Below are positions 6,050-14,941 of a stretch of 64,000 nucleotides of DNA, one piece after another (position 1 is the stretch's first letter; every line of letters starts with the position of its first letter). The DNA is from SAR86 cluster bacterium SAR86B. Its GTDB lineage: Bacteria; Pseudomonadota; Gammaproteobacteria; Magnimaribacterales; D2472. The stretch lies in assembly GCA_905182885.1 (NCBI GenBank), contig CAJJCW010000001.1:310001-374000 (forward strand), given 5' to 3'. Both the position numbers and the translations under genes were made by a program. Under the pieces are notes generated by a model. The model worked only from the letters and a program-made list of their open reading frames with translations, did not search any database and was not told the DNA's origin.

Positions 6050-6216
6050 TACATTCTGGTTCATTCGCTAATGTGTTTATAAAATTTGAACCGATAATAT
6101 AAAATAGGTGATATTCCTCTATCATTGTTGTGCAGTACCTAATTAGGGAAGCCTGATCTGATATGAAATTCGCCACCTGACCTTTCGGTTCAGGTATGGC
6201 ACATGGCGGTGATTTG
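6050..6216 (+). ncRNA. ssrS: 6S RNA
   Basis: Located between zapA and fau as in other Gammaproteobacteria. Contains blocks resembling E. coli 6S (GAACCGATAATAT; TTAGGGAAGCCTGATCTG; ACCTGACCTTTCGGTTCAGGT hairpin; GGCACATGGCGG). Closing stem CGC-TA-ATGTG (6066-6075) pairs with CACAT-G-GCG (6200-6208). TATACT at 6039-6044 is a plausible -10. Ends are approximate. Confidence 0.8.
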
Positions 6217-6239
6217 GTTTGTTAGCTTCGGCTCAGTTT

Positions 6240-11351: not shown

Positions 11352-11876
11352 CTATAAAAGTTTTTCGATGTCTGAGATTAACCCAGGAGAGTTAGGCTCA
11401 ACATTCTTTCCATAGGTTGAAACTATACTTCCATCTTTAGAGATTAAGTATTTATTGAAGTTCCAGGATGGCTGAACTCCAGATTCTTTTCTAAGTTTCT
11501 TGTAAAAAGGATGAGCTTTTTTACCTCTAACCTTTGTGGTCGCAAACATTGGAAATGTAACTCCGTATTCTGTTGAACAAAACTCTTTGACATCGCTTTC
11601 ATCAGCTAGCTCTTGTCCAAGAAAATCTCTTGAAGGAACTCCAATAACAACAAAATCTTCGTCTTTATATTTTTTATATAAATTCTGAAGTTCTGCATAT
11701 TGGTATGTATATCCGCATCTGCTAGCAACATTAACAACTAACATCGCCTTGCCCTCAAACTCGCATAAGTTTTTTGTTTCAGCAGAATCTAATAATCTCA
11801 TATCAGTATCAAGAAGATCTGAACAAGCTTCAGAGTAGAATGGAGCCAAACAAAGAATAAGGAGTAATTTTTTCAT
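11352..11876 (-). CDS. Glutathione peroxidase family protein with signal peptide
   Basis: VNVASRCGYTYQYAELQNLYKKYK... and PSWNFNKYLISKDG. Confidence 0.88.
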   Translation of the reverse strand: MKKLLLILCLAPFYSEACSDLLDTDMRLLDSAETKNLCEFEGKAMLVVNVASRCGYTYQYAELQNLYKKYKDEDFVVIGVPSRDFLGQELADESDVKEFCSTEYGVTFPMFATTKVRGKKAHPFYKKLRKESGVQPSWNFNKYLISKDGSIVSTYGKNVEPNSPGLISDIEKLL

Positions 11877-11908: not shown

Positions 11909-11995
11909 TTATGAGATTGGCGTAATGGCGATTAGTGACGAGATAAAGATGCCCATCAAGGCAACTACTTCTAAATTATCTATATATTTTTTCAT
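11909..11995 (-). CDS. Micro-ORF, 28-aa hydrophobic peptide MKKYIDNLEVVALMGIFISSLIAITPIS
   Basis: ATG at 11995 preceded by TTAGG (weak SD) about 6-10 nt upstream; stop TAA 11909-11911; one predicted TM helix. Follows a two-hairpin leader. Not in the ORF track because of length. Confidence 0.5.
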   Translation of the reverse strand: MKKYIDNLEVVALMGIFISSLIAITPIS

Positions 11996-12015
11996 AAAAA
12001 ACCTAATTGTTAATA

Positions 12016-12090
12016 ATGGAGGGTAGAAACCCTCCATATAATTCCAGAGTATCGGCAAATTCTAATAGGGGGAGAGGAGTGCCGATGCAA
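12016..12090 (-). ncRNA. Structured leader or sRNA candidate with two hairpins upstream of the micro-ORF
   Basis: Stem ATCGGCA/TGCCGAT (12051-12057 with 12080-12086) enclosing a C-rich loop; 9-bp hairpin ATGGAGGGT-TTCT-ACCCTCCAT on the minus strand (about 12016-12037). Confidence 0.5.
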
Positions 12091-12225
12091 TTATTATACA
12101 TACTTATAATATATTATCAATATAAATGATAAAATAAGTTAGAAAGATGCTTGAAATATAAACAATAACTAAAAATACCCCTCTTTTTATGTATAATTTA
12201 GATCTATTTTTATTAGGAGTTTAAA

Positions 12226-14392: not shown

Positions 14393-14435
14393 AAAAAGGG
14401 ACTAAGTTCTTATTTGAACTTTTGTCCCTTTTTTT
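14393..14435. terminator. Bidirectional rho-independent terminator between the fadB-like gene and the L,D-transpeptidase
   Basis: AAAAAGGGAC...AAGTTC-TTATTT-GAACTT..GTCCCTTTTTTT: long stem with flanking A and T tracts; overlaps the 3' end of the minus-strand CDS. Confidence 0.8.
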
Positions 14436-14941
14436 ACAACATTGAAAAGGTCAATAGCATCTGAATTAAACATTCTTATGCAGCCATGAGATGCCTTTAG
14501 GCCTATTAAGCCCTCCTCATGAGTTCCGTGGATGTATATGTATCTATTGAATGAATCTATCCCCTTCCCCTTATTAATACCTGGCTCTATACCGTCTAGC
14601 CACATTATTCTTGATGTTACGTAGTCATCATCTGAGTCTAAAGGATGGTCAATAATCTCAGCCTGGCGTGAAGTATTAATCCTAGATTTAAAAATAGTAT
14701 TAATTTTGGCTCCATCGCCTATCATTTCTTTTATAACGTGATCTCCTAGGGGTGTTTTGAACGAATTTGCTGTGCTGCCTTCACCGTATTCAGAGGATGA
14801 GATTGGATAACTGGATAGAATCCCATTATCCTTCATTACATATAGTCTTTGTTCAGATATATCTATTTCTAAAGCAACCTCTGAGGAAGCAAGATTAAGT
14901 GAAATGCTTAAGAAAAAAATTATAAATGTCTTTTGATACAT
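14402..14941 (-). CDS. L,D-transpeptidase (YkuD family)
   Basis: Catalytic motif YIHGTHEEGLIGLKASHGCIRM; N-terminal signal peptide. Confidence 0.9.
   Translation of the reverse strand: MYQKTFIIFFLSISLNLASSEVALEIDISEQRLYVMKDNGILSSYPISSSEYGEGSTANSFKTPLGDHVIKEMIGDGAKINTIFKSRINTSRQAEIIDHPLDSDDDYVTSRIMWLDGIEPGINKGKGIDSFNRYIYIHGTHEEGLIGLKASHGCIRMFNSDAIDLFNVVKKGTKVQIRT

Follow-up and report, generated by a model that had tools for sequence, protein, structure and literature searches.

CcsR/cuckoo RNAs are small RNAs with a C-rich loop. They share a transcription unit with a small DUF1127 protein (PMC10253847). sX13 of Xanthomonas is Hfq-independent and its C-rich loops act on G-motifs at ribosome-binding sites (PMC3771888), while RepG of Helicobacter pylori (HPnc5490), with a loop core of UCCCCCU (PMC3771888), has a G-repeat of the tlpB leader as its target (PMC8295292).

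The RNA described here was identified on the minus strand of a 64,000-nucleotide stretch of the genome of SAR86 cluster bacterium SAR86B (the window). SAR86 is among the most abundant bacterial groups of the surface ocean, and proteorhodopsin was first described from it. A literature search found no report on SAR86 small RNAs or on small-RNA control of proteorhodopsin. Searching the RNA segment against Rfam 15 gave no family at or above its gathering threshold and no relevant match even at E<=10. This agrees with the sequence-only reading, which had recognised no named Rfam family here, and the RNA is a previously uncatalogued small RNA of SAR86. The sole Rfam match in the window is a 6S RNA at 6050-6224 (plus strand, 52.9 bits, above the Rfam gathering score).

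In common with sX13, the SAR86 RNA has a C-rich apical loop, predicted pairing with G-rich motifs near translation starts, a proposed independence of Hfq and a gene of its own; sX13, however, is 115 nt in length with three stem-loops, is located at the polA locus in hosts possessing hfq and has no micro-protein. RepG has a loop core identical to that of the SAR86 RNA and targets the G-run of an mRNA leader, as is predicted for the SAR86 RNA, but the G-repeat of its tlpB target is variable in length, and its sequence, locus and lineage are unrelated. The CcsR/cuckoo likeness is that a small C-rich-loop RNA and a small protein are encoded in one transcription unit. In those loci the protein, an RNA-binding DUF1127 protein of 71 aa, lies upstream of tandem RNAs, whereas in SAR86 a 28-aa membrane peptide lies downstream of a single RNA. 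The DUF1127 association that characterises a cuckoo RNA/CIN1 locus was not found, the micro-protein being without a Pfam or NCBIfam match and the downstream neighbour being a glutathione peroxidase. Type I toxin-antitoxin loci likewise place a short hydrophobic peptide with a single helix next to a small RNA, but the SAR86 module is fixed and vertically inherited, and its RNA lacks complementarity to the peptide start in the family of the window (f1) and also occurs free of the peptide. An apical C-rich loop, unpaired in predicted folds, and complementary G-runs near the translation starts of putative targets were both identified, as for RNAs of the sX13/RepG type. By the logic of its sequence the SAR86 RNA would thus work like sX13 and RepG, a resemblance of kind and not of homology family.

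Architecture of the locus and selection on its structure

The features of the locus, all on the minus strand, are the following (evidence in brackets):

12093..12120, promoter-like box: -35 TTGATA (12120-12115), 16-nt spacer, -10 TATAAT (12098-12093) (sequence)
12011..12086, small RNA gene, approximately 76 nt (covariation, distribution, stand-alone second copy)
12051..12086, hairpin 1: stem 1 ATCGGCA/TGCCGAT (12086-12080 / 12057-12051) with a large unpaired loop (fold, covariation)
12062..12079, C-rich loop CTCCTCTCCCCCTATTAG, proposed antisense seed (conservation, unpaired in folds, covariation with target leader)
Between hairpins 1 and 2, short spacer ACTCTGGAATTAT (sequence)
12016..12037, hairpin 2: ATGGAGGGT-TTCT-ACCCTCCAT, intrinsic-terminator-like (sequence, covariation)
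11909..11995, 28-aa single-pass membrane micro-protein MKKYIDNLEVVALMGIFISSLIAITPIS, 28 aa plus stop (90 loci, purifying selection)
11352..11876, secreted glutathione peroxidase gene directly downstream (Pfam PF00255, E 1.5e-30; conserved order)

Read along the minus strand from 12120 to 11909, the promoter-like box is followed by hairpin 1, the spacer, hairpin 2 and the ATG-initiated 28-aa ORF, and then by the peroxidase gene. The -35 hexamer is unchanged in 29/29 aligned copies from families f1 and f4, among which the -10 box is also strongly conserved. Both ends of the small RNA are estimates, the start being placed about 7 nt past the -10 box and the end within the tract after hairpin 2. 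The loop of hairpin 1 exposes CUCCUCUCCCCCUAUUAG. The arms of stem 2 lie at 12037-12029 and 12024-12016, and the T-tract that follows is weak in the window copy (TATTAAC) and better in many relatives; judged by its form, hairpin 2 is the terminator of the small RNA.

The sequence-only reading had described two stems and a 28-aa ORF on the minus strand, and these were found at the positions it gave. Folding of the 82-nt segment yields -24.1 kcal/mol; dinucleotide shuffles give -13.6 +/- 2.7 (z = -3.85), and 1/200 of them reached the same stability. The same reading held the module to be a selected element rather than spacer, naming compensatory changes in both stems and conservation of the peptide among relatives as support, and both were found. 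Among 25 f1 sequences, both partners have changed in seven of 15 pairs. On addition of f4 this is seen for 10/12 pairs, five of six tested in each hairpin, with 34 cells against 6.7 +/- 2.1 in shuffled data (0/500), and the signal is lost when the pairing partner is slid by 1-3 columns. This covariation shows an RNA under selection for structure. Its most conserved stretch is the C-rich loop, the C-run of which is almost invariant; in the predicted fold of almost every copy this loop stays open. The sequence-only reading overlooked the promoter-like box (12120-12093) and was unaware of a second copy in the same genome and of the downstream glutathione peroxidase in conserved order.

Distribution of the RNA and its micro-protein

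A combined promoter and RNA model (E<=1e-4) was run against 204 genomes of the order, and matches were obtained in 115: 95/108 in f1 and 20 in f4, with no match in families f2 or f3. As most of these genomes are incomplete assemblies from single cells or metagenomes, absence from a single genome means little; the family-wide absences from f2 and f3 mean more. The label of orphan given in the sequence-only reading does not hold, the module being a two-part gene in nearly all genomes of f1 and in the 20 of f4. Using an earlier model on a class-wide sample, no convincing match was found elsewhere, the one weak match being a bare terminator. Matches of that model in G296 (L102), L080 and L081 were rejected as RNA copies, being bare terminators.

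The second copy in the genome of the window (G000:C3:14023-14101) possesses the same promoter and C-rich loop without the peptide, and ends in a clean terminator, ATGGAGAGCC-TA-GGCTCTCCATTTTTCTTTT. It sits between tRNA-Val and a convergent sbcB, with no gene downstream on its strand. More than one RNA copy per genome occurs in some genera, and since an sbcB-adjacent copy without the peptide is present in some, the RNA is, on this distribution, a stand-alone one. The two hairpins are read as a small-RNA gene that has both a promoter and a terminator to itself; because it is also found without the peptide, they are not merely the leader of a micro-ORF. That this is an RNA gene is almost certain. 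At L067 (G015:C10) a third copy was found in an unrelated neighbourhood with neither peptide nor sbcB. In G009, the closest relative (L004, L071), the loop of the peptide-side copy has decayed (GTTCTTACCCCTATAAG) and the sbcB copy retains the C-run, possibly a hand-over between RNA copies.

The micro-protein is carried by 90 loci, which amount to 62 different sequences as DNA and 48 as protein. Without correction for saturation its pN/pS is 0.40; of 828 pairs, 98% have pN<pS, and by this measure the ORF is a real gene under purifying selection. The proteins possess a charged start, a conserved Glu and one hydrophobic helix, with a Pro near the end in f1. At L076, L077, L171 and L184, all in f4, the RNA and this micro-protein are separated by another conserved one, approximately 35 aa long (e.g. 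MSKHISDIAEFLKQYPLWGCAFFGCGYLIGLSIS).

The peroxidase neighbours every examined locus of the first RNA copy, the one found in the window. The order in f1 is fixed, with RNA, peptide and peroxidase lying between a fadJ-like gene and rpiA. In f4 the same three follow an L,D-transpeptidase gene, the flanking proteins sharing only approximately 40-50% identity with their counterparts in the window, and at L075, L078 and L171 the micro-ORF overlaps the peroxidase start. In f2 and f3 the transpeptidase gene immediately precedes that of the peroxidase, and both RNA and peptide are absent; the RNA-peptide module therefore sits exactly between genes that are neighbours elsewhere. In the window, the L,D-transpeptidase (14402-14941) and the peroxidase (11352-11876) are separated by the fadJ-like gene and the module. 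TATATAAT precedes the ATG of many f1 peroxidase genes by about 7 nt (11900-11876 on the minus strand in the window, and related loci), which suggests a leaderless peroxidase mRNA from its own promoter, beginning just past the peptide gene.

Predicted targets of the C-rich loop

The loops of G000 and G018, genomes of different genera, were scanned against all 5' regions (approximately 1180 and 1240 ORFs; 861 orthologue pairs). The best shared predicted target was proteorhodopsin (ranks 2 and 1), followed by a 71/72-aa membrane protein adjoining pnp (ranks 3 and 4). Shortening the loop to 19 nt put proteorhodopsin at rank 1 in both genomes and the 71-aa protein at ranks 17 and 4; of 60 shuffled loops, one performed equally well genome-wide. 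The motif GGGGG is rare within 70 nt upstream of a gene (18/1183 and 14/1238) and, tRNA and terminator cases aside, is common to both genomes only at proteorhodopsin and the 71-aa gene.

The loop and the leader of the 71-aa gene were found to change together. In genera g1 and g2 (g5 being close), loop CCCCCUAUUAG corresponds to leader CUAAUAGGGGG; in g8, loop CUCCCCCUAUUUAG to leader CUAAAUAGGGGGAG, the match in G031 being perfect over 14 nt; in g7, g9 and g10, loop CCCCCUAUG to leader CAUAGGGGG; and in family f4, loop CCCCCAUGA to leader UCAUGGGGG. Predicted pairing within the own clade averages -20.3 kcal/mol, versus -17.8 +/- 0.55 for permuted clades (11 clades, p = 5e-5), where the clades share ancestry and are not independent, such that about four matched changes are counted, not eleven. 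The genome of G024 contains the 9-mer AATAGGGGG at just two sites, one opposite the RNA and the other within the 71-aa leader. Counting against this target, two f3 genomes without the RNA also show GGGGG at the Shine-Dalgarno of the 71-aa gene. The predicted pairing covers the Shine-Dalgarno sequence of the 71-aa mRNA, making repression the natural reading. On these data the 71-aa mRNA is the best-supported target of the RNA, and a likely one. Its product has no relative in Pfam, NCBIfam or PDB. At G000:C1:112615-113123 it forms part of a tandem of small hydrophobic proteins (71 and 77 aa) adjoining pnp, a pair widespread in SAR86.

For proteorhodopsin, a leader GGGGG was identified in 26/31 genomes of f1, 4/6 of f4, 0/7 of f2 and 0/6 of f3, that is, in 30/37 carriers of the RNA versus 0/13 non-carriers. 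Mean pairing with the reference loop is -20.9 (f1), -15.2 (f4), -12.1 (f2) and -12.8 (f3) kcal/mol. Many f1 leaders are predicted to pair in two parts, UCCCCC with the G-run and ACUCCU with the AGGAGU Shine-Dalgarno, the mRNA between the two sites being able to fold as a hairpin. In genera g3, g4 and g10 proteorhodopsin lacks the G-run though the RNA is present. The f4 pairing, which is short (about -14 kcal/mol), is not claimed, and a simple Shine-Dalgarno switch in this leader was set aside, folding showing one in some genomes only. Proteorhodopsin mRNA is a plausible second target, less certain than the first.

Proposed mechanism and alternative readings

We consider it probable that the locus encodes a stand-alone, Hfq-independent, trans-acting antisense RNA that blocks ribosome-binding sites in the manner of sX13 and RepG, with read-through expressing the micro-protein. 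Hairpin 1 would display the unpaired C-rich loop and hairpin 2 would end transcription. The loop would base-pair with G-runs at ribosome-binding regions and so lower translation, over the Shine-Dalgarno itself in the 71-aa mRNA, and at a G-run about 45 nt upstream in proteorhodopsin mRNA, where it could also touch the AGGAGU Shine-Dalgarno. Transcripts passing hairpin 2 would yield the 28-aa micro-protein and probably also the peroxidase. The RNA gene, covarying stems, conserved peptide and loop-leader covariation are read from the sequences. That the RNA is transcribed, pairs with its targets in cells and represses them, that read-through reaches the peptide, and that light or oxidative stress is in any way involved, is what we infer. 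No Hfq was detected in 31 genomes of the order and no ProQ in 26 (0/31 and 0/26; E. coli controls positive), hence any action of the RNA must be Hfq-independent. A leaky terminator at peptide-bearing loci was not supported, as the 8-nt tract after hairpin 2 does not differ in its number of Ts between loci with and without the peptide (5.0 and 5.3).

The order of RNA, peptide and peroxidase kept in f1 and f4, and the overlap of peptide and peroxidase start in f4, could also be read as those of a mainly cis-acting leader, in which hairpin 2 is an attenuator whose regulated read-through controls micro-protein and peroxidase. Every aligned copy has a purine-rich 5' arm in hairpin 2, and the C-rich loop could pair with this arm as an antiterminator; this match, however, is just 4-6 bp (by eye) against the 8-9 bp of the terminator stem. 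Downstream of the sbcB-adjacent copy there is no gene on the same strand to control, and the loop sequence tracks the leader of another gene, that of the 71-aa protein, leaving such a leader an unlikely main function. A small single-helix peptide beside a small RNA would fit a type I toxin-antitoxin pair, the peptide being the toxin and the RNA its antitoxin, and at two f4 loci (L075, L078) the peptide leader contains GGAGAGG, a 7-nt complement of the loop. We give this reading very little weight, as f1 peptide leaders have no G-rich complement, the module is inherited vertically at a single fixed location in approximately 90% of genomes, and RNA copies exist without any peptide. The almost invariant C-run would also suit a decoy binding protein or ribosome instead of mRNAs, but the bases 3' of it vary together with the 71-aa leader. 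No such coupling would be needed in a protein decoy, and it is thus highly improbable that the loop serves in this way. A chance spacer or mobile repeat, for which the multiple copies per genome in some genera might speak, is refuted by synteny fixed across 40-50% protein divergence, covarying stems and purifying selection on the peptide.

Under the trans-acting antisense reading, one C-loop RNA may tune the translation of proteorhodopsin together with that of a conserved small membrane protein, the same unit supplying the micro-protein and a periplasmic peroxidase; such a riboregulated light/redox membrane programme in SAR86, without detectable Hfq or ProQ, is put forward only tentatively. 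The locus indicates that a spacer of about 190 nt in a streamlined genome can hold a regulatory RNA as well as a conserved micro-protein gene. With a family-wide RNA and a target leader that covaries with it, post-transcriptional control becomes directly testable in a streamlined, Hfq-less ocean bacterium.
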